From Tetradesmus obliquus (taxonomy: Eukaryota; Chlorophyta; Chlorophyceae; Sphaeropleales; Scenedesmaceae), in the NCBI GenBank assembly GCA_030272155.1, contig CP126191.1, forward strand, positions 8,206,501 to 8,270,500: DNA of 64,000 bases, written 5' to 3'. Below, piece by piece: positions 1,390-62,427 of the stretch (position 1 is its first letter; every line of letters starts with the position of its first letter). The translations under genes and the position numbers were made by a program. The notes beneath the pieces were generated by a model, which searched no databases, had not been told where the DNA came from, and worked only from the letters and a program-made list of their open reading frames with translations.

Positions 1390-4300
1390 CTACACTGGCG
1401 GTTGGCAGTCGGACAACCGTTTGCAAGTAATGCCTGTGCACGTCGTGCCAGCGACGGTACATGGGGACGCTCCCTGCTCGTCGCCGTCAATATCGAACGC
1501 GCCAGCGGCTACTCCTGGGCAGAAGTAGCCTGGCTTGCACGGCTGAATGGTGTTGTCGTTGAGCACACTCCCAATGCCGGTGTAGTAGTAGCCCTCCTCC
1601 ACGGTACAGTCTTCTGCTGTTTTGCTGCCTGCCACTGATGTGGAGCCGAGTGTTGGGCAGGTGCCGGAGATGCCTGTGGTGGTGGAGAAGAGAGTGATCT
1701 TTGTGCCCGCGCACCAGTTGTCAGGTTCGCATGGCTTGATGGTGGTACCTTCGATTGGCTCCTTCTGAGTAGCTAAGGCGCCAGGGAGGTAGAACCACCC
1801 AGGATCCAGTCTGTCGCAGCCGGTGGGTGCTGACTGGCCTGCGCTGCTGGTCCCGGAGCCGCCGTTGGGTGTTGTAGTCTGTGCGGCACAAGCAGCGGCG
1901 GCAACTGGCGTCGCTGTCGCCGCGGTGCAGTCGTAGCCAGGGCAATCGCGCACACCAGATAGAGCAGTGGTGTAGGTCTCTGTCGTACACGTGCCTCCAG
2001 GACATGAGCCTGGGCAGTAAGCATTGGCTAGGCACGTCTTGATGGTCGATCCATCCACGGCGGTGGAGAGACCATTGTGGAAATAGCCAGGCAGCAGAAT
2101 ATTGCAGTCTGCGGCTTCGTTGTTGACGGTCGCTACGAGGGCGGCATCCGCGGTGAGGGTGCCAATGGCGCTTGCAGTGGATGCAGCCTCAGTGGTGGTG
2201 CCAGTTTGGCACGCAGTTCTGCCCTGTACGTTTGTGTTTGCAACGACAGTGGCCCCACCAGGGCAGAAGTATCCTTTAGTGCAGACGAGCACGTTGGTGG
2301 TATCGAGCTGGTGGGGTGGCGCGCCTGCCACCCCGGTGTAGTAGTAGCCTGCGATGAGCTTGCATGACAATGCGTTCACTGCGGCGGTAGTGCCTAGGCC
2401 TGCGGTGCCGGCTGGGCAGGTCCGGCTGCCTCCGTTGCTCTTGTAGCCTCCCACCACGGAGCCAGGACTGCAGCAAGGTAAGTAGCAAGGCAGCACATCA
2501 AAAGCAGCACAGGGGGTGTTAGTGACCCAAACAAAGCACCGACATCAGCCGCACTTTGTACTCTTTGACATGTGGCAAATCTACTTGTAGTTACCGCAGG
2601 GCATCACACTGCACAGGTTGGTTCTGGCAGCAGCAAGCACCGACAATGCTTGATGGCTCACCAGTATGTGTTGACTGCACACTCAGCAGCGGTGTTGGTG
2701 GCACTGAAGTAGTAACCAGGCATCAGCAGGCTCCAGCAGTCCGTAGCAGCAGCAGCATCAGGCGGTGTGTACACGCCAACGGTGGCGGTGCCAGCAGCAG
2801 CAGTGCAAGTCTTGCGAGGGGCCGCGCCAATCAGGCCGCCTTCGCAGTAGTAGGACACAGGTCCTGCGGATGCCACGTCCACATCATCATTGCACAGCTT
2901 GATGGTGTTGCTTCCTGGGTCGGTGTAGTAGCCGGGGGGGACGGTCAGGCTCTGTGTGAAGCTGTTGAAGTCAGCCTTGATCAGCGAACGCCTGCTGTTG
3001 CCGGGCTGCACAGCAAGACAAAAGAGCGGCAAGAACAGGCGGTATGGCGTGAGGGAGGCGGGTGAAGCGCCAGGCGTGCGCAATGCCTTGGCCGCAGTGC
3101 TAGGCCTAGTACGTGGTGTTGCATGATGGACGGGACTGATACCGTTTGACACATGCTGGGCGGTTTGGTCACTGCTGATCATATGGTCAGTTGTTGTAGC
3201 CTGATCTCGGGAGGTGTGCTGCTGTGATACCGCGCGCACCACTGTCCTCCCTCCTACTTGTGCCAGCAGCAGTGCATGCAGATTGGAATGCAGGTTAGCC
3301 TCTGCCAGGACTAGCAACCCACCTGCACTTTGGCCATGATCAACCTGCAAGAGTCAGAAGTAATGCTGTCATCTGTCAGGTCATATGCGCCAAAGGCAGC
3401 TCCCACGCACAGGTTGCTGTTGGTGCAGGCGTCCAGGCAAGCTTGCAGCTTGTCCTCCGCGGCCAATAATGGAGCTGCTGGATTTGTGTAGTATGTGTTG
3501 CCGGTTTTGTCAATGGCAGCTGGGACACCAGTGGCACTGCCATCCATCCAGAAGGTGTACTGCCCGTTGCCCATGGCCTTGCTCTTTAGGGACAGTGCCA
3601 GGTTCTGGGAGGGGAACACCTTGACGGCCACACTGCAAGCAGCAGCAGCATCACAACACACAGCTGTTAAGGTGCGGCCCATGGTTCTGTGTGGGCGGAC
3701 TGACGTGCAGACTGCGCACACAGGGGTTGTGGCAGAGGAAATCACACAGCAACAAAGAAGGGCCAGGAGCAGAAAATGCATGCAAAACCGAGCAGGCTCA
3801 CCCGCCGGCTGCCTTGAAAGGCGCGTCAGTCACTGGCTTCCACATGTAGCACGCCACCTCCATGTAGTCAAAGGTGACAGCAGCACAGTCGGGTTGGTTC
3901 CTGCAGGCCTGGGCACACGACTTCAGGTTGTCTGCGTCGTCCAGCTTGGTAACAGCAGGCTTGCTGAGATCAAGGGGCAGCTCAAACGCGCCATCCACTG
4001 TCTGTGCCATGTCAGCCACGCTGCAGGGCAAAACAACATTGGGACAGCAGGCGGCAAGCATGTCAGCAGTAGCTTTTGCGCGACGCCCGTCAGCGGTGAC
4101 AACCCCTGGCAACTCCCTGCAATTCCTTGCAACTCCCTGCAACATGGCATGCTGGGCTGTTGCTGGCATGTGAGCACGTGGCAGCCGGTGCAGGTGAGGC
4201 ACATTCGTCTTGGAACCATGACGAATGGACCAGAACCAGCAACAAATGCCTGATACAGTTCTGGCTGCCCTGCGCACTGTTCTTGGTTGCCAGCCACAAT

Positions 4301-6629
4301 GCAGCACATCTCAGCACGGGCTGCACCCGTATAGCACTCACCAGTCGTTGATGTCCTTGGCTCCCACAGGGCTGGTGGCCAGGGGGCTGAACACATCGTC
4401 GGTGCCATCCCAGGAGTAGGTGTAGGTGCGGCCAGTGGGGCAGGACAGGCAGGGCGTGGACGTGCGGGAGGCAGGGCCGTAGTAGCCGGAAGGGCAGAGC
4501 TGGCAGGTGAGGAAGGGGACGTTGGGATTTGACGCGGTATCGCCGCTGAGGGGATCAAAGTCACCGTAGCCAGCAGCGCAGACTGCAAGCGTACAACAGG
4601 CAGCGCATGACATGGTTGGCGAGGTGTGATGTGTGACTAAATGAGCTCTCAGCAACTGCCGACACTGCTGGCAAATGCAGTGGCCCACCTGGCGGGCAAG
4701 GCTGTTGCATATGTATGGCACAGGTGGCTTACTAAAGCTGGCCTACTGCAAGGAAATGACCTGACATGCTCTGCCATGCTTCACTCTGTTGCAGCACTGC
4801 TGCATGTCCTTCAAAGCAGCAGTCCAACATGCACTCACGTGAGCAGTTTTTCGGAGAGATTGACCCCAAATCCCCGGAGGTGTAGCCGACCATGCAGGTG
4901 CTGCAGGCCTCTCCATCAACGTCCTTGGTCACACCAAGCGTTTGGTACGTGCCCACAGCACACATGGCGGTGGCGCCGTTGACCAGGCCATAGCCCTGGA
5001 TGTACTTTGAGCAGTAGCCGGCATCCACGTTGATGGTCACACCGCTGCCGGTGGTGGTGCCAAAAGGACACCAGCATGAACAAGACAGGTGTGTCAGCAC
5101 CGCAATATTGCCATTAACGCACACGCCGGCAGCATGGGTGGTTTGGAAAACACATGGCCACGTGCTTCATGCGGCATTGCTGCTAACAGCAGAGGGCACT
5201 TGATGCTGGACGTATTTGGCCCTGCACGCCAGACACCAAGCCTTTTTGCCGAACATCCACACTGAACCGTTTGCAGCGCCTCACAGGCCACTCACTGTGT
5301 GCAGGGGTTCTTGTTGCCCCTGCCATTGTAGGTGCCAGCCGGGCAGATCTGGGAGGAACCGGAGTAGTAGCCATAGCCGTCCTGCGAGGGTGCAGGCATC
5401 GAGTGCAACAGTGCAGGAAGACACATATGTCAATCACATGCACAGGCGCAGAAGCAGGTGTCGCGCCACAGCACAATGGTGCAGCATGGTTGGGACTGGC
5501 GGACTTATGAAGTATGCAGATTGCCGCAGCACAAGCATGCGCTGCTTACCTGAGTGGCGCAGGCATCCACAGAGAAGTAGCCGCCAGCGCCGGAGTTGGT
5601 TGCGGACTGGGTCTCAAGGCCTACTGGATTAGTCTTCTCTAGGTAGCCAGTGATCTTGTTCTCTGCATTTGCCTCAGGTGTAGCGTACTGCCCTGTCTTC
5701 ATGTTGGTGGGGCAGGCTGTGCAGGGTGTGATGGTGCGGCCGTACTTCTTGAACACACCAGTAGCGGGGTCTGGCCCGTTGATGCCGTATGAGTCAGCGG
5801 TACACACCACTGCCTTTAAGTATGTGGTGCCGGTCTTGATGTCCCTCATGGACACGACCCCCATGCCGCGCTGGATGTCTGCAGCCGTCAGCAGCACACA
5901 CAGGACCATTGGCTTGTGAGAACAAGCATGGCAGAAAAACAGCTAGTGCCAGCATCGTTGCTGCTGCTGACAAGACCTGCTGCAAACAAGACCTGCATTC
6001 CAGTGCATGACTGGCAGCACACCCAGGCAGCAGCAGGCACTCATGTTGCAGCTGCAGGCTGTTGTGTTTGTGACTGCACAAGCTGTGACTGCATAACATG
6101 GGGAGAGCTGTTGCAGGCACTCACAGCAGTTCTCAGGGCTGCCGCGCACGGCAACCTGCTGCATGGTGATGCCTGTGTTGGGGTCGAGCTTGTTGATGAA
6201 GGTGGTGGGGTCTGACAGCCACAGGTCACCAGTCAGCAGGTTGCTGATGGAGGTGCCGGCACAGTTGTCGCAGGTGGTGAGCCTGTTCAAGCCCTGCAGG
6301 GAAACCAGCCAGCAGCAGCAGGCCCAGCTTGCTGTGTTGATGCACTTTTTTTTGGGTCTGTCGCTTTCTAGCAGAAGGTGCGCGATAGACTGCACGAAGA
6401 TGAGAGCACTCTGGTGTGTGCTCGAGCTCAGGTGTGTCAGCAACATACATTACAAAGCCTACATAGCCACCTACATAGCCACATAAACTAGACAAGAGCT
6501 GAGGGACTTCCCGCTTAAGCTATCAAAGACAGCAAGCAGAGAAGCAGCAGCCGCACCCTCCTCCTTGTACTGGCCCTGCGTGCATGAGCTCTCTGTGTTG
6601 TTACTTGATGACATGTGTTGGGTTGCCAT
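1390..6629 (-). CDS. Gene A: 5'-truncated tandem copy of the secreted cysteine-rich/PAN gene B, possibly decaying
   Basis: Exons homologous to B exons 9-17 lie at 6293-6125, 5878-5550, 5381-5296, 5071-4839, 4582-4342, 4020-3802, 3632-3323, 3005-2662 and 2467-1390 (stop TAG). They total 3009 nt in one consistent frame, about 1002 codons without an internal stop. They encode the later GCC2/GCC3-like modules, two PAN/Apple-like modules (for example DACTNSNLCVGAAFGAYD) and the C-terminal repeats with GYYYTG and C-x-G-x-x-C-x-G motifs. The copy lacks B exons 1-7, so it has no signal peptide. Homology starts inside the exon 8 equivalent, where an ATG at 6629 opens a short frame (6629-6561) ending GQYKE. 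Two splice signals differ from B: the donor after 6561 reads GA instead of GT, and the acceptor before 5071 reads TG instead of AG. The intact frames argue for recent function; the truncation and splice losses argue for decay. Confidence 0.6.
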
Positions 6630-7931: not shown

Positions 7932-10900
7932 TTATGCACAAACCTTTGTAGTTCCGTCACAAAGAATACCTGCCGTGCAGGTCAGTCCACCAGTACATGC
8001 GGTTAGCCCGCCCTCGCTGGTGGCAAGAGAAAAGTCGCCTCCTGAACACACATTGCCTGGCTTGCAGGGCTGGATGGTGCTGGCAGTGAGGTCAGGTGGG
8101 CTACTCCCGGTGTAGTAGTAGCCTTTCACCAGCGTACAGTCCTCGGCCTCGTTGCTGCCAGCAACTGATGTGGAACCGGGTTTTGGGCAGGTACCAGTGA
8201 TGCCGGTCACCGCAGAGAAAACTGTGATCTGCACACCACTGATGTCTGTGCCGGCGCACCAGTCGCCTTCCTCGCAGGGCTTGACGGTGGTGACGTCCGG
8301 CCTGCTGCTGGCAACAGTGGGTTTGTAGTAGAATCCAACGTCCAGCTTGTTGCAGCTGGCTGCTGACACAGCGGTGGTACCGGCAGTGGTGGTACCGGCA
8401 CCGCCGGTGAGGGTGGTGGTGCCCCTCAAACTATTGTCGGGATCGCACACAGCATTGTTGCCAGCTGTTCCCGATTTTGCGCACGCATAACCAGGGCATG
8501 CAATGACGCCTGCTGGGGCGGTGGCGGTGTAGGGACCTGGACCACCCGGGCAGAACCCATTGGCGGGGCACGCCCTGACAGTGGTCGTTGTGACAGTCAA
8601 ATCGTCACCATTATGGTGATAGCCCGGCAGCAGAACTGTGCAGTCTGTGGCGAGGGTGACCCCAGTGCCTGGAGTTGTGGTGCCAATGGGGCATGTTGTA
8701 TTGCCGACTGCTGTACTTAAACTGCCAGTGTCAATGTTGACGGTACCAAGGCAGAAGGAGCCCTTGGGGCACAGGAGCACATTGCTGGTGGTGATCTGGA
8801 CAGGGGCAGCACCTGTCTCTCCCGTGTAGTAGTAGCCGGGTTGCAGGTCAATGCATGCTGTAGAGTCTCTGGCGTCGGTGTCGTCCGTGGCGGTTGTGGT
8901 TTTGGTGCCAGTTGGGCAGCGCTCACGGCCTGCTCCAACGCCTGTGAATGTGTAGCCTCCCACAACAGAGCCAGGGCTGCAGGCAGCAGGGCAGGAAGAC
9001 GGTAGAGCGGCACAATGAGTGGTCAGGAGGCGCCATGCATAACACCAATCAGCTGCACGATGTGCGCATGTGGCTTGAGTTTCAGTGCGGACGACCCTTC
9101 ACAACAATTGTACTACCAACAATTACCCAGAATATATTGCTGTCAGACAACGCTGCCAACACAATCGCAGCAACAGCCAGCGACAGCAACAAACCAGGTG
9201 CAGCACATAGCGCGCTTTCTGCCTCACCAGAAATAGTCGGCGTCACACCCTTTAGCTTCCCTGGCGGCTACGGACTGGTAACCAGGCTTCAGCAGGCTCC
9301 AGCAGTCAGCCCCCTTGGCGGCATCCGGCGGTGTGTAGACGCCAACACTTACTGCAGCAGGACAGACAGTGCGGTTGGCCACACCAACCAGGCCACCAAG
9401 GCAGTAGTATGACACCGCGTTTGCAGTGTTAGTGATGTCCTCCACGTCGTCATTGCATAGCTGGATGGTGTTGCTTCCTGGGTCCGTGTAGTAGCCCGGG
9501 GGCACCACCAGGCTCTGTGTGAAGCTGTTGAAGTCAGCCTTGATCAGCGAGCGCCTGCTGTTGCCGGGCTGCAGCAGCAGACACAAGAGCGGCAAGTGAA
9601 GGCAAGCAAGGTAGAATTGAGTGTGGCTAGGTGAGTACCAGGGTCGTGTCACAAAGGAGATACGAATGGCGACTGTCTCCGCGTGGGAGGAATGGCTCTT
9701 TGAATGCTGCGGCAAGCTCAGGACACTCCATATGGATGACGGCACCACACCATGAGCACCAAAACCGTGACTGCTGCCTGCCTATGTTGGCCTCGAGTAC
9801 AGCAGGACGAGATGGCAGAGATATGCAGGTGTGGCCTCTGCTACTCACCTGCACTTTGGCCATGATCAGGCGGCAGGAGTAGGGTGAGTTGTTGTCGATG
9901 GTCCCTGTTGTCAGGTCGTACGCGCCGAAGCGGGCGCCCACGCAGAGGTTGCTGTTGGTGCAGAAGTCAAGGCAGTTCTGCAGCGTGGATGCTGACACTG
10001 CGTCCGCGTAGTACTTGTTGCCTGACTGGTCAACACCTGTGCTGTCGAGCGCAGCTGGGACACCCGCCAATTCATCCCCATCCATCCAGAAGGTGTACTG
10101 TCCGTTGCCCATGGCCTTGCCGGTCACCTTGGTGGACAGCGCAAGGTTCTGGGAGGGGAAGACCTTGACGGCCACACTGCAAGCAGCGACAGGACAGCAC
10201 AAAACTGTTGGTGACCCGTGAAGGTGCTGCATACATGCGCTGCTGTTTTTGGGTGACGTGCAATCAGAACATGCTGTCAGCACCACGGTGCAATATAAGC
10301 GGCAGAGGAAGCCACGCAGCAACACAGACCAAGAGCAGACCGAGCAAGCTGTGCTCACCCGCCTGCCAGGTTGAAGGGCTTGTCAGTCACTGGCTGCCAC
10401 ATGTAACAGGCCACCTCCAGGTAATCAAACGTCACGGCAGCGCAGGTGGCATTATCCCTGCAGCGCTGGGCGCATGTCTTCAGGTTGTCTGCGTCGGGGA
10501 GCTTGGTGACAGCGCGGTGGCTCAGAACCAGAGGCAGCTCAAAGGCGCCATCAACCGTCTGAGCCATGTCGGCCACGCTGCAGGCGCAGCGATAGGCAGC
10601 ATACAAGACAAAGGGCATGTTGCTTAGTGATAGCTGTTGTTTGCTGCATATTGATGGTCATGCCAGCAGCAGCCATGGGACTCTGCAACTTCCTGTGAGC
10701 ACTTACATTCTAATTTGGGCAGCGCATTGAAGCTAATCGCCAGTAAAGCTGAGCCGATCACTTGCAGCATGTCACACAAGCGTGCTTCCATCTCCTTTAT
10801 ACCGGCCACGCCACAGCCACATCGTGGCATGAACATCGCACAGGCTTGCGCCTCACCAGTCGTTGATGTCCTTGGAACCCACAGGGCTGGTGGCCAGGGG

Positions 10901-13060
10901 GCTGAACACATCATCGGTGCCATCCCAGGAGTAGGTGTAGGTGCGGCCGGTGGGGCAGGACAGGCAGGGCGTGGACGTGCGGGCGGCAGGGCCGTAGTAG
11001 CCGGCCGGGCAGAACTGGCAGGTGAGGCCCGCGAGGTCCGTGTGTGCAGCTTTGTCGCCGGTCAGGGGGTCGAAGTCGCCATAGCCAGCGGCACACACTG
11101 CAATTGCACACAGAAACATCATGATGATGCACACCAGTTGTAAATTATTGATGCATGTCAGTGAAAGCCTGAGATGAGCAGCAGATGCACTGCCAGCGGT
11201 GCTAAACCTCTCGACTGGGTGTTGACCTGGCAGGCAAGCAGTACTTGCATGTGGCTCTGGCACCTGAGCCACTACTGCTGCAGCAGAATGTCAAGGCATA
11301 AACTCACGTGAGCAGTTGGCTGCACGGATCGATCCTACGTCTCCGGTGACGTAGCCGACTGGGCAGGTTGTGCAGGCCTTGCCATCAGAGTCCTTGGGCT
11401 TATTGACACCCTGCCATGTGCCCACAGCACACATGGCAGTGGCCCCGTTGACCAGGCCATAGCCCTGGATGTACACTGAGCAGAAGCCGATATCCACGTT
11501 GATGGCCACACCGCTGTTGGTGGTGGTGCCGAAAGGACACCTGCATGAACAACAGGGGCAAGTCAGCACAGCGCAGCACCACCAGGCAGCTTGTGCGCAG
11601 GGTATGTGGCAACATTGCTGGCAGCAGCTGGGGTTCGTTGGTGGGGAACTATCGCCCTGCACTTTGGAACCTGCCTTGTGCCAAACATCTCCAACACTGC
11701 GAAACAATTGCCGGCTGCATCACAGCCCACTCACTGTGTGCAGGGGTTCTTGTTGCCCTTGCCATTGTAGGTGCCAGCAGGGCAGATCTGGGAGGATCCT
11801 GAGTAGTAGCCATAGCCGTCCTGTGGAGGGGGGGGGGGGGAGCAAAGGTGTGCAGCAAAGCGGAAGGAACACAGATGTCAAGCACTCGGTACTTGGAAGC
11901 TGCTTTCAGGCTGCTTGCAGCTGCTGGCACTGCAGCGACTGAGCCGCAGCTGATTGCTGCAGCAATGCTCTGCTGTCGGCGCCATGCACAGCAAGTAGGC
12001 TAAGCACAGGTCCAGCCGGATTCTGCAGGAGGGCTGGCAGCCAGCCTTTTCACAAGCTGGCCCCTCTTACCTGAGTGGCGCAGGCATCCACGGAGAAGTA
12101 GCCGCCAGTGCCGGAGTAGGTTGTGGTCTGTGTCGTCAGCGGTGTCGGTGTGACCTTGGTGAGGTAGCTGGTGATCTGGCTGGCTGCGTTGTCCTCAGGC
12201 GTAGCATACTGCCCTGTCTGCATGTTGGTGGGGCAGGCCGTGCAAGGTGTGATGGTGCGGCCGTACTTCTTGAACACACCGGTTGCGGGATTTGGCCCGT
12301 TGATGCCGTATGAGTCGGCGGGACACACAACGGCCTTGAAGTATGTGGTGCCAGTCTTGATGTCCCTCATGGACATGACACCCATGCCGCGCTGAATGTC
12401 TGCAGCAGGTCAGCCCAATAACAGAGGAGACGCTTGCTTGTCAGCACGGTCCCTGCTGTGAAGGCATTGGGCATGCTGTTAGGGGGCGCCAATCACTGCA
12501 GCAATGCAGATCCAGGCAGTCAAGAGGTACGCATGTCGCGGCTGCTAGCTGTTGTGGAATCGGCCGCACACAACATCGCACTGCAGAGCTGTTGCAACCA
12601 CTCACAGCAGTTCTCAGGGCTGCCGCGCACGGCAAACTGCTGCATGGTGATGCCAGTGCTGGGGTCGAGCTTGTTGATGAAGGTGGTGGGGTCTGACAGC
12701 CATAGGTCATCATCAACAGCGGCCAGCACGGCGGTGTTGGAGGTGCCGGAGCAGTAGTCGCAGGTGGTGAGCCTGTTCCAGCCCTGCAGAGGAACCGGCC
12801 AGCAGCAACAGGCCAGCTTGTTGGTTACACGCACAGGACAATGTGTCGCTTGCTGTGGTGCAAGGTGCACACGCTGCACGGCAGACTGCGTAGGCGAGTC
12901 ACCGTTCGTGTGTGCTGAGGCAGAGGTGTGTTAGTTGCTCGTTGGTTCATTGCCCCACACAGCCAACATAAAAACAGGAGCTAAGACATCCAAGCAAGGG
13001 CATAGCAGCAAGCCAAGCAAGACAGAAGCAGCAGCACCCACCTCCTTGTACTGGCCCTGT
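7035..13060. repeat. Tandem duplication unit 2 (3' two thirds of gene B and its 3' flank)
   Basis: This partner of unit 1 is in the same orientation and immediately adjacent. It covers B exons 8 (part) to 17 and the downstream flank. The remaining 5' part of B (13.1-16.2 kb) was not duplicated, which explains why A is truncated. Confidence 0.8.
7130..7143. repeat. Poly-G run
   Basis: A homopolymer of at least 14 G sits in the flank of gene B. The matching place in unit 1 (about 657-661) has only five G, so the run expanded after the duplication. Confidence 0.8.
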
Positions 13061-16000
13061 GAGCATGGAGTGGCTTGGTTACCACCGGAGTCATACACGA
13101 AACCAGGTGGTGCAACTGCAGCAGCAGCAATGCAAGTAGCGACACAACACACAAGCAATTGGCTGTCAGCCATGTAGCATGTCACGCTGGTTAAAGCAAT
13201 GCCATTCAGAAGGGCCTCGAGATGTCACACTCCAGCTACCTTGACATCCCCCTCGACACACTGCACATCAGCGCACGAAGTCTGATAAACAATATAATCC
13301 TGGAGCAACAGTGCAGCATTGCGTCGCAAGAGCTTGGCACGTGGTGTCACAGGTAGCCGTATCTTCGGCCCAGCAGGTCACAAGCCACAGTTGTGTGAGC
13401 TTGTCAGATTAGTCCCCGCTGCAGCAGTGGTTATCAAATCATTACAGAGTAGTGATGCAAGCTCCACTGCACATCACACCATCAGCTGCTGGCGTCACTC
13501 ACCGCACTCATCCACAGCAATAGCACCCTCGCCCTCCGTCCACAGCTGGTTGTTGCCGGTTCCGGGGCATACCAGGGGCTGACCACCAGCATCAGGGTTG
13601 CCACCAGGGCTGCAGCATGATGAGGAAGCACACAAGAATCAGTACTACTCGCACTTTGTAGACTGCAGCACTCAACAAAGGATTGTTCTGCAGTGCTGCA
13701 ACAGAGCTGCCCTCAGTGGCGCAAAGAGTATGCCAAATGGCACCATTGCAGAGAGGTGTTACTCAGTAGCCACTGTAAAGTTACAGTCTAGTAAGCAGCC
13801 AGGGTGTGCGCAGCTGCGCAGTGCGTGGGTTGCTGCTACATGGTGCAGGAAGACGACTCACCAGTAGGAGTTCTGAGGGCAGGGCTTAGCTCCAAGCCAC
13901 TGGCGGTTGAGGGCCAGCAGAGATGCCAGTGTTGTGGTGACAACCTTCTTCCTGTCATCCACCAGGGCATAACCGCGCTCCAGCCCTGCGGGTCAACACA
14001 ACCACAAATACAGCCATCAGCATCATGCTGCATGATGGGGCAAAGAACATGTGTGCACCTGGCGCAATACTGTCACAGTTGTGTGAACCCTGCTCACACA
14101 GATTGCCCATAGAAAACCTGGTGCATTGGCATGTACCGCAGCAGGGCTAGGGTGTGCTAACCAGTCCGGTGCATTGCTATCACCCGTGGGCAGTGGGCTG
14201 GTGACCAGCCAGCCAGGTTCCTAGGGTCTGACAGTGCACTTGCATGCAGACCACCCAACATGATGTAGCGATGCAGCCACCAGCTACTGGCACATGCCAC
14301 TCACACTTGCAGTCGCTCCTGGAGGTGGAGTTGGCCTTCTCAGTGGTGATGCCCTCTCCAAACTCATCCAGGCAGGTTGTGCAGGATGTGGAGGAGTCGT
14401 AGCTGTCGGAGTACTCGCCCTTGGGGCTGCAAACAGAATCAGGCAGAGCAGCAGCAGCATGTGAGTGGCGGCGGAGAGGAGAGTGCTGTGATGCAGTGTA
14501 TGCATTGCAGTTAGCCATGCATGGGGCAGCAGCTGGGAGATCGTGTGCCGAGCCCACAACATCGCAACATGCGGCCTGGGCATAGGCAGAGAAGCAGGTG
14601 CTGCGCTGGCAAAGTAACATGACTGTGCATAGCATGTGAGGTGTCGGCTCACCAGGGTACCACGGAGTCACCAGCCACGAAAGAGCCAGGTGGGGCCACT
14701 GCAGACAGCACAGCAAGGCAGCAGCACAGCAGCAGCGTTAACAACTGCCAGAGTCATGCTGCCAGCAGTCCATGCGCAGCTTCATGGCGCTTGTGAGTGA
14801 CACACAGCATGCTGTGGACAGCAGTAAGCTGCAGCAGTAAAATATGTTCTTAAACAGCTCAAACTGCTTCACCTGCTACATGTGGCAGCTGTCCTGCCAG
14901 GACCAATCATTGCAGGCAGCATGCAGCGTGCTAGAGGTACCGCCACTCACCGCACACAGCTGAGGAGGTGTGGATGCCAGGGGGGTTGGCAGGGTCTGTC
15001 TTGAAGCCTGGCATGCACCTGGTGCAGGTGGTCTGCTTCTTCAGGCCGACAGTGTACTCATCATCGCCGCAGGCAATGGCGCGGACACCGGATGAGGTCC
15101 TGAAGTAGCGGTAGCCGGGCTTGTTGAAGCAGTCGTTCACTGACCTGGCGCCCGTCTTCAGGGTGACGGTGTTGGGCGGGCAGTTCTTGGCCGTGGTGGT
15201 GGTGGCGCTCTGGCCCAGGGGGCAGAACTGGTTCATCTTGCAGGGAGCGCAGCCGCCGTTGGCCATGGGGTACATGCCAGCAGGGCACTGCAGCGCAGGA
15301 GGGCAGCAGCAGCGCAGAAGTGGGTGAGTGAGGCCGCACACTGGTGTTGCAATGGTAATTGATGCTGGGTGAGGGGGTGTATGGTGGCTCATGCATGTGC
15401 ACGCTGCTGCTGCATTACTGCATGGAGCTGCTGTTGCTGTGGAATGAGTGGCTGCACAGGGTGAGGCAAGAAGAGGGGCTGCCTGGCAACCATAATACGC
15501 GTAAGCGTGTATTGCAGCAGCGAGGGCCTGGCCAGCTGGCAGATGTACTGCTGCAGCACAACATGCCTGAAACAGCTGTCATAAACCACAGTCGGAATAG
15601 CACCGTCTCGTCTGTGCACCTGGTAGCATGTTTTATCCAAGCACTTGCATGCGCAAAATGCTCACCACACACTCGGTCTGCCTGGTGTTGGGGATTCTCG
15701 GGAAGTTGCAGGCCTTGCACTGCCATGCCTTCGTCCTGGAGCTGTACACGCAAGCGGATGCTTCTTTGCAGTATTGGATAGGGCAGGTCTGCTGGCCTGG
15801 GTCGCCGAAGCCTTGCTGCAGCTTGCGACCACCTGGCAGGCGAAGGGCACAGCGCGGGCAGCAGCAGGGGCACGGGCCAGTCAGACGCTGCACAAAAAGG
15901 CAGTTCTGCCTTTGCTGCTATATGCGTGAAGCCTGTTGTCAGCCGGCTGCGACAAAAGGCGCAACCGACGTCGTGCTTCACCAGTGAAAGAGCTCAACCC

Positions 16001-16156
16001 GGATTCCTCGATCGAACATTATGCTGTTCGCAAAGTTCGCAAGTAAGGGCAATGGCGTTGCTGAACGTAGAGCAGCCCCTCACCTAGCGAGTCAGCCTGA
16101 CATACGGCCAGAGCTGCTGCTGCTAAAAGCAGCAGCCGCACAGACATCCCTGTCAT
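7932..16156 (-). CDS. Gene B: large secreted cysteine-rich protein with GCC2/GCC3-like and PAN/Apple-like modules
   Basis: Seventeen exons: 16156-16084, 15832-15666, 15287-14951, 14698-14653, 14426-14305, 13985-13862, 13609-13503, 13115-13042, 12783-12606, 12399-12071, 11820-11735, 11540-11308, 11097-10857, 10577-10359, 10176-9849, 9568-9228 and 8976-7932. They total 4050 nt and 1349 aa with no frame conflict. Exon 1 encodes a clear signal peptide (MTGMSVRLLLLAAAALAVCQ), which fixes the start. Residues 25-705 are cysteine-rich modules of the ephrin-receptor-like GCC2/GCC3 type (CPKGEY, then CTTC, then TTEKANS, then DCK). Residues 706-888 hold two PAN/Apple-like modules (NLKTCAQRCRDNATCAAVTF, then CLDFCTNSNLCVGARF). 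Residues 889-1349 carry a repeated unit, GYYYTG followed by C-x-x-G-x-x-C-x-G. No membrane segment or GPI signal is evident, so the protein is probably secreted. Function is unknown; a wall, matrix or adhesion role is inferred. Paralogues are A, C and D. Confidence 0.85.
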
Positions 16157-26800: not shown

Positions 26801-27880
26801 GGGAGAGGTGGACCCCAGCCAGGTGCACAAGAGCCTCACACGCATCCGCGAGCGCAAGACAGCCAACTTCATCGAATGGGGGCCAGCCAGCATCCAGGTG
26901 CGCGCAGGAGCCCACGCTGCTGCGCAGCAAGCGCCAGCAGCTGGCTTTGCCGGCTGGCACCTTGTGCTGTTGCCGTCACAGCTGAGCTTGCAGCCGCCGC
27001 AACCAGCCACGCCGCCCTTGCTTCCTTGTAGGTGGTGTTCTGCTTGCTTGCTTGCTTGCTTGCCGCTGTTGCTACGTGACGAACAACCCACACACTTAGT
27101 GGTGGCTACAAAGACACCACCTGCGGCCTTGTATCCAAAGCACACTGCCTGCCACCTGCTCTGCCTGCATCACCTGCCCTGCCTGCCCCCTGCGCTGCCA
27201 GGTGGCGCTGAGCAAGAAGTCTCCCTACGTGCAGTCTGCGCACCGCGTGTCGGGCCTCATGCTGGCCAACAACACCTCCATCAGGCACCTGTTCAACAAG
27301 ATCATGCGCGACTACGACAAGCTCATGGGGCCCAACAACAGCAGGAGGTGCGCATGCAGCGCTGCATTGATGACAGCATGAACAGCGCAACTGAATGATT
27401 CACAAGCACTGGGATATACGGATGATGTGGCGAGCGTTGGCCTCAGCAGCATACTTGCATGGCAGACAGCAGTAGCCTTGGGCACGTAACTGTGCAGCGC
27501 AACTGCCTGTGCAATCAGCAACCGGCCGCCTGCTGCGTTGCATTCCATCTAACGCTCTTTTTTTTGTTACCGCAGGGCGTTCCTGGACCCGTACGCGCAG
27601 TTTGCGCGCTTCAGCGATGGCAACGGGGCCCTGGACCTGGAGGAGTTCATGGACGCGAAGGATGTGGTCACCAGCCTCAGCAAGGAGTATGAGGCCTGCG
27701 AGCGCGCCGACTACGTGAGTGGCGCAGCATGCGTTTCCTCACAATACGTTGGTTGTGGTTCATTTGTGACGTGCTTTGTGCCGGTTGCTGGCACCTGTGC
27801 AGGTATCTTTGCAATTGCAGCTCCTCACATTGTCTTGTGTGCATATCTATGCTTGCTTGCAGATCCAGTCAGAGTTCTGA
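23811..27880 (+). CDS. TUBG: Gamma-tubulin
   Basis: Eleven exons: 23811-23882, 24023-24079, 24281-24366, 24655-24806, 25128-25269, 25581-25810, 26143-26327, 26733-26897, 27202-27347, 27576-27714 and 27863-27880. They total 1392 nt and 463 aa, the usual length for the family. The start [18 protein letters not shown] and the gamma-specific stretches [52 protein letters not shown] and [12 protein letters not shown] leave no doubt. The tubulin GTP-binding signature GGTGSG is in exon 5. The protein nucleates microtubules as part of the gamma-tubulin complex at basal bodies and spindle poles. The last exon holds only five codons (IQSEF) and a stop. The 3' acceptor of exon 5 follows a GCC/CTG repeat. 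Confidence 0.98.
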
Positions 27881-32871: not shown

Positions 32872-32931
<60 letters not shown>

Positions 32932-51232: not shown

Positions 51233-52279
51233 ATGATGCGCCAGACCCTCGTGGGGCTGGTGCTGGCTAGCCTGGCCTTGCAGGCAGCAGCCATGCACCC
51301 AGACGTGCTGACATTCTTGAGAGGCCCTGCTCCCAGCCTGGAAACAGAGGCAACAGCACAAACCGGCAGGAGGCTGCAGCAGACGTTTGGTGAAGCACCT
51401 CGTGAGTATTGCAGGGCTGCTGAGCGCTGCTGCTGCTGTCATAGCCTTGTCCAGTGTTTACATTTTGGAACGTGAACCCATGCAGTGGCTGCACTGCCGT
51501 GAACAGATGGGCAACTTTGAGCAGAGTTCAACTGTCAGCTGCTGAAGGCAGTTGGCAGGTATTGACACGATACCGCAGAAAGCGTTGATGGTGTCAGCCT
51601 TGCCAGTCATGGAATTATGTGGCATGGTTATGAGCTGGCTGGCTGGCTGGCTGACTGATTGGCTGCAGGCGTCTTGGTTCAGTGCTGGGCAGTGCAGTGA
51701 CACGTCACGAAGCCGCGCTGACCTGCTGCTGCTGCTGCCATTGCTGCCCCGCTGCAAACTCCCCGCAGAGCCCTTCACCTTTGACGGCTTCGGCTTCGGC
51801 ACCGGCGGCTGGTACCCCGGCGGCGGCCTCTTTGATGGCTTTGCCACCAACATCTACAACATCGTGTTCCGCGACATCCTCAACACCGGCCTCACCGAGT
51901 ACGTGGCCAGGGCGCTGCCAAATGACCTGGGCAACCCGCTGAACTTCATCCCGCCGGATGTGGCCGGGTTCCCGCTGGGCACGCGCCTGGGGCGCGACGT
52001 GGTGTCCGTGTTCGGCTTTGACTGGTTCGACAGGTCAGGCTGATGCGGCGTGTGGCGTGTGGTGTGTGGAAATGCGAGTTTCGAGGCGAAGCTGCAGCCT
52101 GACTGATGAGCGCAGAGCGGGCGCAGCATGCGCAGCAGTGGTGTGTATCACAGCCACAGCAAGTGACGCCGATGTGCAGCATGTCTATGCCATAGTGTGA
52201 CGGTGCCTGCAGCAACTCTGGCACAGCTAGCATCCGTACCGGGCAGCGTCGTGGATGTTCTCCGGCAGCAGCACATCCA

Positions 52280-52314
<35 letters not shown>

Positions 52315-53885
52315 GTGTGCAGGTACATTCAGCAGTACTACACCTATGCCACTGCCAGCCAGGGCAAGCTTGTCAATGCAGGCTGCGTGGTGAGTGGCCC
52401 TGGTGCATTCTCACACAGCCGCCACACATGGAGGCAAATCCTTCGCATAGCCTGGTTGAACTGCCTAGTGCTGATTCCTGTGATGCAGAGGAACTGTTTT
52501 GTGGGGTTCAGGTCTGCGAAATGTGCAAATGGCAGGGCTCACACTGTTGCCCAGCCAAGCCGGAGTTGCGCAGGGCGATTGGCGTGCATTGGACAGCTGT
52601 GTGCATCAGACGGGTCACATACACATCCGTAAACCCAGTTTGCAGCAGGGTAGACAGTAGTGTTGCTGTGCGTGCTTGCATATGTATCTTGCTCTGATCT
52701 TTGGCCAGCCCCTGGCGCAGCCAGATCTCCCGCTCCTGCCGCTGCTGCCGCTGTGCTCCAAACACGCCTTCACGGGCTGCCATGCCTGCTGCTTCCACTG
52801 GCGCCTCCCCCTCAATTGCTGCTGCAGGGCCCCAAGTACGGCCTGACGGTCAACGGCGGTGAGTGTGAGATCATGGACGATGGCAGCGTGGAGTGCACCA
52901 ACCCCAGCATTGTGCTCAAGGGCACGCCCCTCACCTGCAACCTGCCCTACAGGGCCGCTGCTGCGCTTGAGGTGGGTGCTGCCGCTGCTGCTGCGCGCCT
53001 GCTGCAGCTGCCTGCCTGCTGCACCTGGCCGATTCAGGGCTGTGTGCATGCATGTGTGCGTGGATGCGTATGTGCAAGTGCTCACTGCACTAAACAGCAG
53101 GTCCCTGCAGACAGCTGCAGGGATGTGGCCCTGTGGAAGAGAGCAGCGCTGCTGGTACTGCGTCCTGCCTTAACACTTCGTATCCTGGTGCTGAGCGCTG
53201 CTGTACAGTGGCGCTGGCACACCCGCGCTGTGCAGCACGCTGTCGAACTGTTGTTGACTGTTGTTGACGGTCGCATGAGTTTGAGTGCGAGCGATGATGC
53301 TGTCTAGCCTGATCGGTGCCAGCACGGTGACGGAGACTGCCTTTTGTATGAAATGTAGCATGATCGCATGCGCACATATGTAGCATCAGTAACAAGCAGC
53401 TTGCAGCATCCGAGTACGGTGGTAGCAAACAACGGGGCGGCACAGCCACATGTCACCCAGCTCCGCCTGCACCTTCTTAAGCACACCCCTGACACCTGTG
53501 CCTGCTGTGCTCCGCCACACTTGTTCCATGTTACGACCCTGCAGGGTGCTGGCTGGCAGTACCGTGCGACGTTTGGCCAGGCGCGGGAGGGCGTCCTGGG
53601 CCCGCCTGCCTCCCAGTACAACTTTGGCGCTGCCGTGAACATCACCAACCCCTACCTGGGCTTCAACGCGCAGCTGAACCGCATCGCCAACGACTTTGGC
53701 GTGCAGCAGTGGTGGCAGTTCACCGGCCAGCTGATCATCAACGAGCTCGTGCGCATCCAGGCGGCACTCGTCAGCGGCGACGTTGACAGGCGCATCTACA
53801 CTCGGGAGCTCAACGACCGCGCAGCAGCACTCGGCTTCCGGCCCGTGCCTGATCCTGGAGCCAGGCGCCACCTGCTGGCTGGCGA

Positions 53886-53917
<32 letters not shown>

Positions 53918-54456
53918 GGTCTGGCATTGCAGCTGGCATTGATGCGCTGCGCAGTGCCGGCAGCACCTTGATGCAGCGGGTGGCGCAGCGCATGGGGCTG
54001 TCTGTTGCTGACTTGATTGATGGGCTGCGCGCAGCAGGCGTACCTGTGCCTGGCAGCGAGCAGTCCCTGACACGCATGAACCTGGCAGCAGCGCCACGGC
54101 AGCAGCAACAGCAGCAGGCAAAGGCGCAGGCTGCTGCTGATGTGAGCCAGGATCTGTCATCGCTGGTTACATTTGCAGAGCTCGCCGATGCTTCAGCGAC
54201 GCCAGATGCTACCGCGCCTGCTGTGGCTCCTGAGGCAGCACTCCGTGAATTTGCTGCAAGCGTGCCGGCCGCTTCCCAGGTCATCTCGCAGACCACCAAT
54301 GAGTCAGAGGGTGATGCTGCAATGCTGGCACAGCTGAACCAGGGCCTTGCTGCTGACAGGGCTGCTGCTGTGGGAGCACGCACTGGCGCTCAGGAGCAGT
54401 TCATGCAGCCTGAGCCCGTGGGTCCTGTCTTGAGCCAGCAGCCTGCCAGCGGTTAA
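51233..54456 (+). CDS. Gene E: secreted orphan protein
   Basis: Five exons: 51233-51401, 51769-52033, 52323-52389, 52828-52971 and 53545-54456 (1557 nt, 518 aa, phases all consistent). The ATG pair at 51233 opens a good signal peptide (MMRQTLVGLVLASLALQAAA). Residues 57-145 form an aromatic, glycine-rich domain (FDGFGFGTGGWYPGGGLFDG, then IYNIVFRDILNTGLTEYVAR). Residues 168-215 hold a small four-cysteine segment (NGGECEIMDDGSVECTNPS). Residues about 216-320 follow (GWQYRATFGQAREG, then QQWWQFTGQLIINELVRIQA), ending at GARRHLLAGE. The last 200 residues are Ala/Gln-rich and low in complexity. RRLQ and RRHLL may be processing sites. I do not recognise the family. Extracellular location is inferred from the signal peptide and from the neighbouring extracellular genes. 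Confidence 0.8.
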
Positions 54457-56520: not shown

Positions 56521-59500
56521 TCACGAGGCAAATATCACACTGCTCACGCGTGTGTGCACCAGAGTGCGTTGTGTGTTGGTATTGCTCACCTCCCCTGCCA
56601 ACAGTGAGCAGCTTGCGATGCTCTGCCCTGCCACATCATAAGTGAAGTGGACGGCAGCACATGTGCTAGCAGTGTTGCAGGTGGTCAGGCAGCCCCCGAT
56701 GGTTGGACTGTTCGTTATCACCTGCGTCACGCTACCAACCTCTGCCGCATTGGCATCACCCCACGCAGAGAAGCCACCAAAGCCCATTCCTTGGGCCTGC
56801 ACAATGCCAGATGTAGGCATGATCTTGTAGGCAATTGCAGATCTGCAGCAGAAGGAAGAAGCATGAAGTGTAGCATGATGTCAAGATACAGTATGTGCTG
56901 TGTTGAAATCTGACACTCGGGCACTCGCCTTTTTAAAGGCATGAGCAGCAGGCGTCTAGTTCTCTCAGCAGCCACACAGTGACAAAATCTGACCCGTTGA
57001 CATCACAAGCGTTTGACACTTTGCAGCCTGCACACCACAAGTAACTTGTCGTTTGCTAGCGTCAAATGCAGGTCCTTGCTGCCGACTTACGTTGAGCCAG
57101 TACCGCCGCCCACTCGCAGCATGCACTTGGTTTCATCTGCAGCAGCGTAGTCAAACGTCAGAAACTGGCAAGAGCTCTGGCTCCTGCAAGCCTCAACGCA
57201 TGCCGGCAGGCTGGAAGCACCCACTGCAGCTTCCATTGAGCCACTTGAACTCAGCTTCCAGTTTCCATTCTCGACCTGAGCAAACTCAGGCATGCAAAGA
57301 CTTGCTGATGTGGAGCCTTCTTTGGACACCACAGGGGAGGTGAACACGTTCAGGTCGCCGCCGTAGGCAAAACTGTAAGGGATGGCAGTCGGGCAGGCCT
57401 ACAAGCAGCATGACACCAGCAGGTGGCAATCAGCAGGCAGGGACAGCCGGCGATATATTGCTGCAGCTGCGCTGCTCTAGCAGACAGTGCTACGTCACAC
57501 ACAAGCTACGCAGCCGACGCGCTGTGCTGTCGTGGCTGCAAAAGCAACGCCCCAGGGCTGTCACCCGCTTGCTGCAGACCAAGTTGAGGCGCTGCTGCTA
57601 CATCAGCACACAAGAAGAACAAGACGCATGCTTAAGGCAGCAGCTGCCAACTCACCTGGCAGGAGAGCTGTGAAGGAGCCCTGGAGCTCGATCCATAAGT
57701 GCCGCTAGGGCACTCCACGCATGCGCCGTTGCTGGTGCTTGTTGTTCCCTTGCCCGCAGGGCAAACTGCATTGCAGGGTGATTGTCATCGTCAGTGCCAT
57801 GTGGGAGGCCGGCAACAAACATGCTTGCGGTGTTAGCAGCAACGACACGCAATGTTGCACAGGGCAGCAATCCAACCCTGATAAAATGCAGGCTGCATGG
57901 TGACCACACAGGCTGCTAAGCCGGACGTGAAAGGACGAAATTGTAGCATGTTGCTGTGTGCAGGCATCACCATGCTTTTCTACTCTGCGAGGTCCACCAT
58001 CGTTTTGCAAGGCACTCACCGTCACATTGCGTGATATCAGAAGCTCCAGTTTCGGATGTCATCTTGCCGTCAGGGCAAGGTGTGCACTTCCCTTCCACAC
58101 TGTTTGCCTTGATGTCCCTGTCAGACTTAGCATAGTAGGAGCCTGGAGCGCGAGCGGCAGCAGCAGTTGCAAACGGCGCACCAGGCTGTCAGCTGTTGGT
58201 ACGTGTGTGTGCACAACTAATGGCAGCTGTGCAGCAACTATACTTGACCTGGTGGCCACATAAGTATACTTCAAACGCCAGGGATACTGCACACCTGCTG
58301 TAATAACTAACGCCCGGTGCAGACAGCTCTGCTTATAAACACTCACCTATGTCACACAGCGAGAGGCTTGCATAAGGGTCGGCAGTGTAGGAGTACTGCC
58401 AGCCGGGCAGCAGCAGCGCGCAGTCATCAATGCTCTTCGATGCAGTTCCAGCAGTTGTGGTGCCGTCAGGGCACTCGATGCACTTGCTTGCGCTGTCGCC
58501 GACTGCGGGGTTGTACCAGCCCTTGGGGCAGGGCGTGGCAGAATTGCCGTTATATTGGTAGCCTGGCAGTGTGATGCAGGCGTCTGGGGAGTAGAAAGCT
58601 CCTGATGATGTATCGTAACGATACTTGTCAGGGTTACTGGCGGCTGTGGTGGCATCCACAGTAACAGTGCCGGTCTGCAGAACCGATGGTGGCGCAGGTG
58701 TTTGCAGGTTGCAGTCGCTTGTTGAGCAGAGAAATCCTCGTCAGCGGATCTGTGCTGCGCCTGGCGCAGTCCTGACATGCTGTACTTGAATGCAGCACAC
58801 GCAGGCGTGTAAGCACGAGTATCCGCGGTAGATGCGTGGAGGGCAGAGGAATTTACGTGTCCACTTGCATGACAACCAACTGCACAAACTTGAAGAAGTC
58901 ATATTTCTCTTTCAAGAGAAAGAGAAGCAATGCCCCTGGCACCTCTCACATTAGCTGAAAATGGTAGTGCCAACCACAGCCGTCCTGTGGCTTGTTGCGT
59001 CACGCGGGGCAGTGATCTACGCAGCAAGCAGCTGTATGGCAGCGGCACTCACCGGGCAATCGTGGCAGATCTGCACACCCAAGCCGTAACTGACGTCGTC
59101 CGGGGCATCGCCAGAGGCTCCAAATTGGTTGCTGCCGCAGGTAACTGCCTTGTAAAGGGGCTTGCCCGAATTGGAGACTGCAGCAACCACCATTCCCTGG
59201 CCGCGGAGGATGTCTGCAGGCACATGCATTGCAGCAGTGCGGAGACGACACCAATTACAGCAGTCATTAGTGGAGAAGCACATATGTGGCTGCTGTTGCA
59301 TAGCAGCCTGTTGACAAGTCACTGCTACACAGGGATGCAAGCTTGCAGCATGGTGTGCTGGGAGCTGGCCTGGATGCACATTCAACATGTGTACGTGGCG
59401 TTTTTACTATAGCAGCATGCAGCTTCTGCTCACAGCATGATGTGCTGGGTTGTTCGTGCACTTACAGCAGGACTGATCTGTCTTTGGCACGAGCTTGGCT

Positions 59501-62427
59501 GTAGGCGCGCCAGATCCGTCATCAGACACGTCATAAATGCTGAGGGGCTCTTTGTCATCCGACAGGATGCCAGCACCGCAGGCTGTACAAGTGGTAGCAG
59601 CGCCATTGTACTGCACCCATTCGGGCTGGTAGAGGCCATTTGGGTTATCCGCATCACCGTTGGGGCACTTGGCTACGACGCCTGAGCTGCCAGCAGCTGT
59701 GAAGTAGTGCCCGGGAGGAATCACTGCAGTCAGGTGGAAAGCCACGCAGGAGGGCGTCAGACACAGCACGCAGGAGCCGTGACACAAACCAAGCCTGAAG
59801 GTGGTGGTGGTGGTTGATGCTGATGCAGTTGGCATGTTCTAGGTGTGCATTTGCATGTTTGGCATAGGCAGGGGCACAGGTGCCGCAAATATACAGCAGA
59901 AGTCGCACGCCGTGCACAACAAGCATGGCATGCTGGAAAAACCAACACGACAAGTGGCTGTAAAGGCGCATGCAATGCACGAGTGCATGCATGTGACGGC
60001 GTCCTCAGCAGGCGTGTTGCTTACTGCACTCAGAGGGAGCAGAAGCACCCAGGCCCTTTGTCCACAGGCCAGTGGCGATGGTGCTGCATGACACCATGCC
60101 CGAGTCAGAGTCAGGCGTGGGCCCGCCAGAACAGTAGCTGTTTTGTGGGCAGATCTCTGTCGCTGGGGTTTGCTGCATCTTGTCGGTGGTGCTCAGCCAG
60201 TGGTAGCCACGCAGCAGCACTGCAGAACACACAAGCCAGCAGCAAAATCTATGATGTTATGATCAAGGGGCATGTGAAGTGGCAGCCACGGCTCACGGAT
60301 GCCTGGTTTTGCAAACCATACATTTGTGTGCAAGGCACGCGAAGCAGATGTTGTGCGTCAGGCAAACCCCCAACACACGCGCATCACAGGTACTGTTGAT
60401 GTTGATGGACGTTTGCGATCCATCGCATAATGATGTGCTTGATTAAGCGCGTGCAGGGTTGCCTCACCGTTGCAGTGTGAGAGGCTGGTGCTGTTGGCGT
60501 GCTGTGTTGTCGTGCCAGCAGGGCAGCGCTGGCAGCTGTATGCAGCGGCCGTATCCACATAGCCAACCCTGTACTCTCCTTTGGGGCAACGAGCTACAGC
60601 TGTGCCAGCCCAGAACCACCCTGGAGGCACCTCTGTGGCAGCAGCAGCAGCAGCAGCAGCAGCACGGTGAGCAGTCAACCTCGCAGGGTGCCAGGCACCG
60701 CAGCCGCCAACAAACCCTGCATGCTGACAATTTGCAAGCTACTATTGACTCAACATGTTCAGCATCCACACCCCATACACACATGTATCACAAGCTACAA
60801 TGCATCCTGCAAGCACCAGAGGAGCGCATCCGTCAGCGCCACTCACTGCACACCCCCGCAGAGGTCCTGAGGCCGTTTTCGTCAGGGTCGGTCTTCATGC
60901 CTGCAGGGCAAGGGCTGCAGCGCGCCTGCCGCCCCGTGTAGGCTGAGAAGGTGTTGGCAGGGCAGCGAGCAGCTGTGGGCTGGCCGGCAGTGCTGGGGAT
61001 GTAGCGGTAACCAGGCATGGCCACTGCACACACAAGCAAAAAGAGCAGACAGCTTTGTTTCAGCGTCGTGTCTCTGGAAAATGGCTTGTTCTATTTGTAG
61101 TGCCCAAGCTGCCACATCCCAGAAGACACCTGGCGCGCCACTGAACTGTGGAGGTGCAAGCTGGTGTGAAGCTGGCTGGGTCGGACCATTACACTGCTCA
61201 ACTGGTGACATCCCTGCCTGGAGAACTGGCTCATCGCACCTGCAAGCAATGCTGTTTCTGCCAAGGCATCAGGTTGCATGCTTGCTCACCGCAGTTGGCC
61301 CTGGAGGATGCCCTGAAGATTCTTGTAGTGAGGCCTTCGGTGGTGGAGTTGTTGGCCCAGTTGCAGCTGTACTGCTGCGACGAGGATGCCTTGCCGCCAG
61401 GGCAGTAGAACCCTATCCCACAGTCCTCGCAGGTCGCTGGGTTGTTCACAAGGTACCTGCCAACATCGCAGCCTGGAAGGGAAAGCAGGGTGAAGCGCAA
61501 GTGAGGAGATATGTGTTATACGGGCGCTAAGTCAGGCCCTATTGCTGAGACGGCATGATGACTCAGCCCAGCAGCATGACTTGCACCGCTGCTGACACCA
61601 GTGCACATTGATGTGTTGGACAGCAAGCGCTTGCGTGTCAGGCGGTCAATGTTTGAGGCAAGGCCCTCCCACGATGCATATTTAGAAGGCACGTGATCAT
61701 GTTGTTTTGTTGTGTCACATGCGGGAGCACGGCCCCAGCCGGACTCACCGCAGCTGCCATCACTGCGAGGCACCCTCTTGTTCAAGCACCTGGTGCACCT
61801 GAACAGCCCCAATGTGCTGTCCACAACACAAGCGCCCGGAACAGTGTCACAGCCAGAGGGGCAGGTGGCCTGATCCGCTTGCAGCAAACGCCGGTGGCCT
61901 GCTTGCAGTTGTTGATTGCAGCAGCAGCATTGCAGCAGCAGCAGCAGAAAACATAATTTGGAATGGCTGGACAGGAGCCCATGGCACACACACCCTGTGG
62001 CGAGGTATCATGCGGCCTGTAAAATCATCTAATGCCTACGCATCTGAATGCTGCAAGGTGCTGTGTACCGATGGATATTGTGGGCAGCGCTGGTTGTTCT
62101 TCCCATGCTGCTGCTTGTGCTGCTGTGCACTTGCGATGCCTTTGTATGTGACCAGCAGGTGTTGTGGCCGAGTGCTCGGCAGGTTGGCTGCTTTTGCAAC
62201 AGCTCATCCTATCTTACACCTGTTTATGCACCAGTGTCGCCACTGCACACGTTATAAGCATCCGAAGCGCCCCGCAGGCTGTGCCGGCAGGTCGATGGCT
62301 GTTGTTAACGAGCGGCCTCACCTGCTGTTGCACCCGCGAGTGCAACTGTTGCATCCTGATTTCCTGTTGCAGAGCCTCCGAAACTGCTCAGGCAGACCAG
62401 AACCAGGCAAACTATGCTGAAAGGCAT
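56521..62427 (-). CDS. Gene D: secreted cysteine-rich protein with GCC2/GCC3-like modules and two PAN/Apple-like modules
   Basis: Thirteen exons: 62427-62322, 61898-61749, 61472-61290, 61023-60847, 60632-60468, 60219-60025, 59723-59466, 59213-59053, 58674-58347, 58142-58020, 57765-57656, 57398-57091 and 56842-56521. They total 2586 nt and 861 aa. Exon 1 gives a signal peptide (MPFSIVCLVLVCLSSFGGSA); the longer frame over exon 2 has no ATG, so this upstream exon is needed. Module order and most exon lengths equal those of gene C: exons of 183, 177, 165 and 195 nt are identical, and D exons 8+9 sum to the 489 nt of C exon 8. The GCC2/GCC3 modules include RCPKGEYRVGY, then CQRCPAGTTTQHANST. The two PAN/Apple-like modules (ACVEACRSQSSCQFLTFDY, then GCLTTCNTASTCAAVHFTYD) end the protein with no anchor. 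Function unknown. Confidence 0.87.
60638..60664 (-). repeat. CTG microsatellite (minus strand) abutting the exon 5 acceptor of gene D
   Basis: About nine CTG units on the coding strand run to within a few bases of the CCACAG acceptor of exon 5 (60632). The equivalent intron of gene C has a similar array. Confidence 0.85.

Follow-up and report, generated by a model that had tools for sequence, protein, structure and literature searches.

Large, probably secreted GCC2/GCC3-array and PAN-pair proteins in a green alga and the phase-1 exons of their modules

What kind of protein do four neighbouring cysteine-rich loci of a green alga encode, and how did such proteins come to be built? The question arises from one 64,000-nucleotide stretch of the Tetradesmus obliquus genome (C1:8206501-8270500, C1 being the contig; hereafter the window), with a GC content near 57%. 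A first-pass annotation had described four loci in it, A to D, as a local family of large secreted proteins with one architecture, consisting of a signal peptide, ordered cysteine-rich modules, a segment starting with I-x-RG-x-G[MV], and two PAN/Apple-like modules. All-against-all comparison of the open reading frames (ORFs) of the window bore out four homologous loci at these places and returned two homologous pairs, A-B and C-D (best E-values 1.6e-54 and 3.5e-38, respectively), with weaker links between the pairs. A and B are both located on the minus strand at 1.4-6.5 and 7.9-13 kb, C on the plus strand at 30-36 kb, and D on the minus strand at 56-62 kb. The explanation favoured here, which we consider reasonably probable, is that B, C, and D are large, probably secreted proteins with a GCC2/GCC3 array and a PAN pair, which would play a soluble or matrix role outside the cell and have grown by phase-1 exons.

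Gene models and domains

Gene models were obtained per locus with a small hidden Markov model (HMM) gene finder trained on conserved pieces, and several exon ends were then corrected by hand, guided by the splice consensus and by the homology within each pair. This yielded open models for B (7932..16147, minus strand; 17 exons, 1346 amino acids), C (30437..35631, plus strand; 11 exons, 855 amino acids), and D (56521..62427, minus strand; 13 exons, 861 amino acids). All three were defined by the gene finder and Pfam, C additionally by exon conservation with a dispersed copy at C1:574-580 kb. The outer limits of all models, the stop of A at 1390 and the ATG of D at 62427, coincide with the span annotated at first. 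The 38 introns of these three models are without exception of the GT..AG type, with GCAG as acceptor in 31 of them.

The dispersed copy of C provided a check of the model that is independent of the hand-set C/D exon ends. Its exons are 94-98% identical to those of C and its introns 76-91%, with a ratio of nonsynonymous to synonymous substitution rates (dN/dS) of 0.15, and splice dinucleotides (20/20) and cysteines (55/55) are kept throughout. This excess of exon over intron conservation is the pattern given by selection on the modelled coding exons. The copy itself (L019, C1:572001-582000, with introns and flanks included) has three exons with indels (-1, +4, and -1, respectively) and does not align over the final 8 bases, which include the stop, so it is recently broken or mis-assembled.

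Profile searches gave both predicted families above the Pfam gathering cut-offs in all three proteins, confirming the GCC2/GCC3 and PAN assignment of the first-pass annotation: Ephrin_rec_like (PF07699, GCC2/GCC3) scored 42.7, 81.9, and 85.5 bits in B, C, and D (cut-off 23.1), and PAN_1 (PF00024) 27.4, 31.4, and 32.4 bits in the respective PAN1 module (cut-off 21.4). In C, the modelled signal-peptide exon (30437..30497) is followed by an array of GCC2/GCC3 modules on phase 1-1 exons (30800..34340; Pfam and exon phases), which runs on into exon 10. It includes an exon with the segment I-R-RG-Q-GM and a canonical GCC2 module (33435..33923; Pfam, hhalign). An exon with the last GCC2-like modules and PAN1 (34578..35010; PAN_1 E-value 1.7e-7) and the PAN2 exon with the stop (35292..35631) close the gene. 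The modelled signal-peptide exon of D (62322..62427) likewise leads to an array (57656..61898; Ephrin_rec_like 2.1e-24 for the whole protein, five stretches) with a modelled I-L-RG-Q-GM exon (59053..59213), to PAN1 (57091..57398; PAN_1 8.6e-8, two stretches at E<=1), and to the PAN2 exon with the stop (56521..56842; Pfam and alignment). B starts with a signal-peptide exon (16084..16147; model and signal-peptide scan) and a first array on exons 2-13 (10857..15832; Ephrin_rec_like 4.7e-11 for the whole protein, six stretches) including its I-Q-RG-M-GV segment (12071..12399; hhalign), followed by PAN1 (10359..10577; PAN_1 3e-6) and PAN2 (9849..10176; alignment with C, D, and A, and fold of the C homologue). 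After the PAN modules, B and A carry a second, C-terminal cysteine-rich array of about 400 amino acids (7932..9568 in B), which has homologues at C4 and C1 and is absent from C and D. An architecture ending in two PAN modules, as originally annotated, thus applies to C and D and not to B and A.

C and D share 54% identity, and all 55 cysteines of C are matched in D; B and C are 33% identical with 49 matched cysteines. The module order is common to B, C, and D, as had been proposed and as comparison with L021 confirmed, a B-like gene of 1488 amino acids at C4 that also has the second array. The position of both PAN modules is constant even among paralogues that are only 33% identical. In a follow-up fold comparison of C PAN2, the 14 structural neighbours listed were PAN/Apple chains, three of them so titled and the others presumably of this fold, and PAN2 is a probable PAN/Apple module. 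Among PDB sequences, the best profile match was MIC4 (E 0.043), and a search with the single sequence of D returned TNFRSF21 alone (E 0.021). The I-x-RG-x-G segment had been singled out as a part of its own. Pfam returned nothing convincing for it, hhalign pairs part of it with GCC2 modules (probability 95, 34 columns), and a separate domain was rejected; the segment rather looks like a diverged GCC2 module.

The N-termini of B, C, and D resemble signal peptides, as judged by eye and hydropathy. No later hydrophobic segment or membrane anchor was found beyond residue 40 (best 19-residue mean hydropathy 1.29 in B, 1.19 in C, and 0.90 in D). After the presumed signal peptides, for which cleavage sites were guessed, 82, 54, and 54 cysteines remain in B, C, and D, all even numbers, and glycosylation sequons are few (5, 7, and 2). 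The hydrophobic N-termini and the lack of such a later segment make secretion of the three proteins plausible. Just past the signal peptide, a motif R-x-L-(L)-Q occurs as GGRKLQQ, GHRQLLQQ, and GHRRLLQ in B, C, and D, and as GRRLQQ in an orphan gene at 51 kb of the window. This motif of four proteins, three of them mutually related, could serve in processing or sorting; a literature search for RRLLQ gave a Giardia paper alone among the matches listed.

Locus A departs from this architecture and is a truncated partial duplicate of B. It retains nine exons that correspond to exons 9-17 of B (1390..6293, minus strand; by identity to B) and part of the B exon-8 homologue (6557..6614, minus strand; blastn of A versus B and splice check). 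The A-B alignment begins there and runs onward, with 68% identity over 964 aligned codons and a dN/dS of 0.37 for the exons from 6293 down. Similarity ends at about 6557..6614, where the first exon with homology to B has its donor displaced by one base, and upstream of it blastn did not find similarity to the first exons of B. A signal-peptide exon was not detected in 6294-7930 by a scan that recovers that of B. Additionally, the exon at 4839..5071 (minus strand) has an acceptor TG at 5071/5072 where B has AG (atgctg in A, atgcag in B). A model of the whole of A including 6557-6614 was discarded as out of frame, with 27 stops and a meaningless alignment row. With its 5' truncation, two altered splice sites, and no signal-peptide exon found, A was rejected as a full family member; it does not share the architecture once assigned to all four loci and probably does not encode a functional secreted protein. 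Constraint acting on B, or dating from before the truncation, may account for the low A/B dN/dS.

A genome-wide family and its module exons

Whole-genome searches over 104.7 Mb on 17 contigs showed that the family is not local. Queries with the PAN pairs of C and B retrieved 23 loci at E<=0.01 (21 at E<=0.001), including four within the window; the 23 loci were counted by hand after joining same-strand matches less than 5 kb apart, and some match only part of the pair. PAN_1 matches occur at 16 places, PF07699 alone at no fewer than 140 (i.e., at least 140). All 13 PAN loci outside the window were retrieved; ten resemble B, C, or D over a longer stretch, and the other three do not. L029, a fifth local member with an incomplete model, is located some 10 kb to the left of the window. 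A tree of 13 members, with five rows less than half filled and two long branches, groups A and B with L021 and L029 (99/98) and places C with its copy, D, and members from C16 on the other side (100/100). The tree thus indicates that the window holds two lineages of a genome-wide family. One local clade of A to D was rejected, as the label 'window' needs three changes on it. Two short peptide patterns tried on viral contigs and on prokaryote genomes gave no relatives in either.

Other arrangements were observed elsewhere in the genome. At C14:527-547 kb, GCC2 matches of 39.7 or 39.2 bits recur five times every 4.85-4.9 kb, a pattern suggestive of very recent gene amplification in tandem, and four pairs of equally scoring GCC2 matches separated by about 34.5 kb (C8:1401-1417 kb versus 1436-1451 kb) look like a recent segmental duplication. 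Segment queries found an inverted pair of B-like members at C3:7703-7705 kb and 7710-7711 kb.

Under the favoured explanation, the family would have grown by whole-gene duplication, both in tandem and dispersed over the genome, and modules would increase in number whenever an exon flanked on both sides by phase-1 introns is duplicated; with such symmetric exons, modules could be gained or lost without a frame break. The intron after the signal-peptide exon is in phase 1 in B, C, and D, and in C and D a phase-1 intron directly follows the last cysteine of most GCC2 modules. Phase 1 was found for 19 of 20 module-boundary introns of B, C, and D and for 41 of 45 across 14 models, compared with 5/18 and 45/111 for the other introns of the same genes; the boundary rule was fixed after the pattern was seen, and several of the 14 models are incomplete.

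The clearest case was found outside the window. At C10:2492118-2494414, all seven GCC2 matches are 162-bp exons of phase 1-1 with one module each, preceded by ctgcag or ttgcag and followed by gtgagt or gtaagt. The unit is present as eight direct-repeat copies at 190 nt with a spacing of 357-375 bp; compared to a reference copy, six are 83-94% identical and one is 68% identical. The module exon at C10 has been duplicated in tandem. Modules of class 1-1, which lie between two phase-1 introns, are thus the majority in C and D and account for all seven exons at C10. Tandem module-exon duplication was not seen inside the window genes themselves, whose arrays may have grown as the C10 array does.

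Splice scoring was extended to 41 of 140 GCC2 matches, corresponding to 39 distinct exons at loci that were chosen and not random. Among well-scored exon ends, 35 of 51 GCC2 ends are in phase 1 (26/42 by hand recount without the seven C10 exons); in the controls, the figures are 5/21 for FAS1 (18 of 30 matches covered) and 6/24 for PAN (16 of 16 matches). When the score filter is dropped, phase 1-1 applies to 21 of 39 GCC2 exons. The remainder speaks against growth by phase-1 exons as a general rule: 18/39 are not 1-1, including 6/7 at C3, 6/6 at C5, and 3/3 at C13.

The window pattern might also be inherited from one copied ancestral gene, without any module mobility there, and this is the strongest competitor, to which we give a little less than an even chance. 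Family members are homologous throughout, and all 10 introns of C are common to D in column and phase, an agreement that is partly built in, since the paralogue guided the placing of some exon ends. Descent from one ancestor explains most of what C and D share, which again weighs against module mobility, and shuffling beyond tandem duplication is conjectural. Plain descent does not readily account for the recent exon-by-exon duplication at C10, for module exons at C10 and C2 that are 83% identical on different contigs (exons alone compared), or for copies about 3.0 kb apart at C7. A more far-reaching and only tentative proposal, which we regard as rather improbable, is that animal-style assembly, with phase-1 exons duplicating and moving as units, built a lineage-specific secreted GCC2/PAN recognition repertoire in this alga.

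Possible roles and the neighbouring genes

From the domains we infer secretion in vivo, a division into spacer and head, and a ligand. The GCC2/GCC3 array could form a long, stiff, protease-resistant disulfide spacer, and the PAN pair, near the end in C and D and mid-protein in B, might act as a binding head whose ligand would be a glycan or protein belonging to the cell wall, to another cell, or to a microbe. PAN modules of solved relatives bind proteins or sugars, and a role in matrix, wall, or surface recognition is by this analogy the best guess.

Alternatively, the proteins could be structural wall components without a specific ligand, a disulfide-crosslinked filler in which PAN only dimerises or holds the protein in the matrix. 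Long cysteine arrays, few sequons, no anchor seen, a FAS1 gene nearby, and the constrained PAN exons of A/B (dN/dS 0.19 and 0.29) are consistent with this. A binding task is suggested, in contrast, by the fixed place of the PAN pair in 33%-identical paralogues. Moreover, the PAN-bearing exons of C/D are, signal peptide aside, the least conserved (about 45%, level with one small GCC2 exon; others up to 69%), unlike those of a pure scaffold, and a mere filler is in our view doubtful. Secreted immune- or mating-type recognition proteins under diversifying selection, with a repertoire widened by module-exon turnover, would fit the 23 loci with tandem and dispersed copies, the recent C10 exon array, and the divergence of the C/D PAN-bearing exons, but are the least probable, as strong diversification is disfavoured by A/B exons none of which exceeds a dN/dS of 1 (highest 0.93, 56 codons) and C shows only 0.15 against its copy.

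Three further genes lie among the four loci. A FAS1 (fasciclin) domain (39765..39962, minus strand) was detected in a whole-genome family search with 33.2 bits (cut-off 22); Pfam searches with the FAS1 fragments alone gave no match. This neighbour had been taken to strengthen the case for an extracellular locus. The neighbour is real, but it is weak evidence: it is one of 30 FAS1 matches genome-wide, and with so many of these and at least 140 GCC2 matches, their closeness needs no special explanation. A predicted gamma-tubulin gene, identified by eye from an incomplete model, separates the cluster halves (24056..27880, plus strand). The orphan gene mentioned above (51236..54070, plus strand) has a signal-peptide-like start followed by its GRRLQQ motif, and Pfam gave nothing for it at E<=0.01.

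Comparison with known systems

Ephrin_rec_like modules are found in the ectodomains of Eph receptors and of the animal GCC2/GCC3 proteins SCUBE, ELAPOR1, and SVEP1, i.e., in extracellular proteins, as proposed for B, C, and D. Unlike Eph receptors, the algal proteins have no later hydrophobic segment and carry a PAN pair instead. Pfam at E<=1 found no ephrin-binding, fn3, tyrosine kinase, SAM, CUB, or EGF family in them, and the nearest ELAPOR model, PF23091, reached 19 bits in D (cut-off 33.2). The PAN module is shared with Sarcocystis SML-2, MIC4, HAI-1 MANEC, factor XI, and plant SRK, which are structural neighbours of PAN2. In these proteins, PAN occurs alone or with protease, kinase, or transmembrane parts, and is not known to follow a GCC2 array. 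For the brown alga Ectocarpus, Zambounis et al. in 2012 reportedly described LRR/TPR candidate receptors with exon shuffling, one repeat per exon, and rapid turnover; these belong to different repeat families and a different lineage from the GCC2/PAN genes.

The CRMPs of apicomplexan parasites are also very large and cysteine-rich with ephrin-receptor-like modules; they have an EGF-like core and nine transmembrane domains, with a kringle in CRMPA (PMC9815656). None of these three features was found in B, C, and D. For green algae, a combination of GCC2/GCC3 and PAN was not described among the matches listed for the open literature, as far as their accessible text goes, in line with the first-pass annotation, which knew of no such system. 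Word searches found no 'ephrin', 'PAN', or 'cysteine-rich' in a review of green-algal matrix (PMC10762512), no 'ephrin', 'GCC2', 'PAN', or 'apple' in the Raphidocelis genome paper (PMC5966456), and no 'ephrin' or 'GCC2' and one word starting with 'pan' in the Scenedesmus genome paper (PMC7590803). Matrix and adhesion proteins of algae are poorly known, and the GCC2/PAN families are candidate members of this group.

The closest parallel in gene structure is offered by the class 1-1 modular proteins of animals, which have symmetric phase-1 module exons and a phase-1 intron after the signal peptide, as seen here (PMC8001218). The same 2021 review raises the question of why Metazoa alone show exon shuffling and describes the predominance of class 1-1 modules as mysterious. 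The genes described here differ in belonging to an algal genome, and the likeness is known from phase and tandem copies, not from spread into unrelated architectures; phase 1-1 module exons in algae are not claimed as unreported. If animal-style assembly in this alga proved true, the view of class 1-1 exon shuffling as restricted to animals would break. In a genome remote from animals, phase 1-1 exons of one module each and a recent tandem array open the claim that such shuffling is confined to Metazoa to a direct test.
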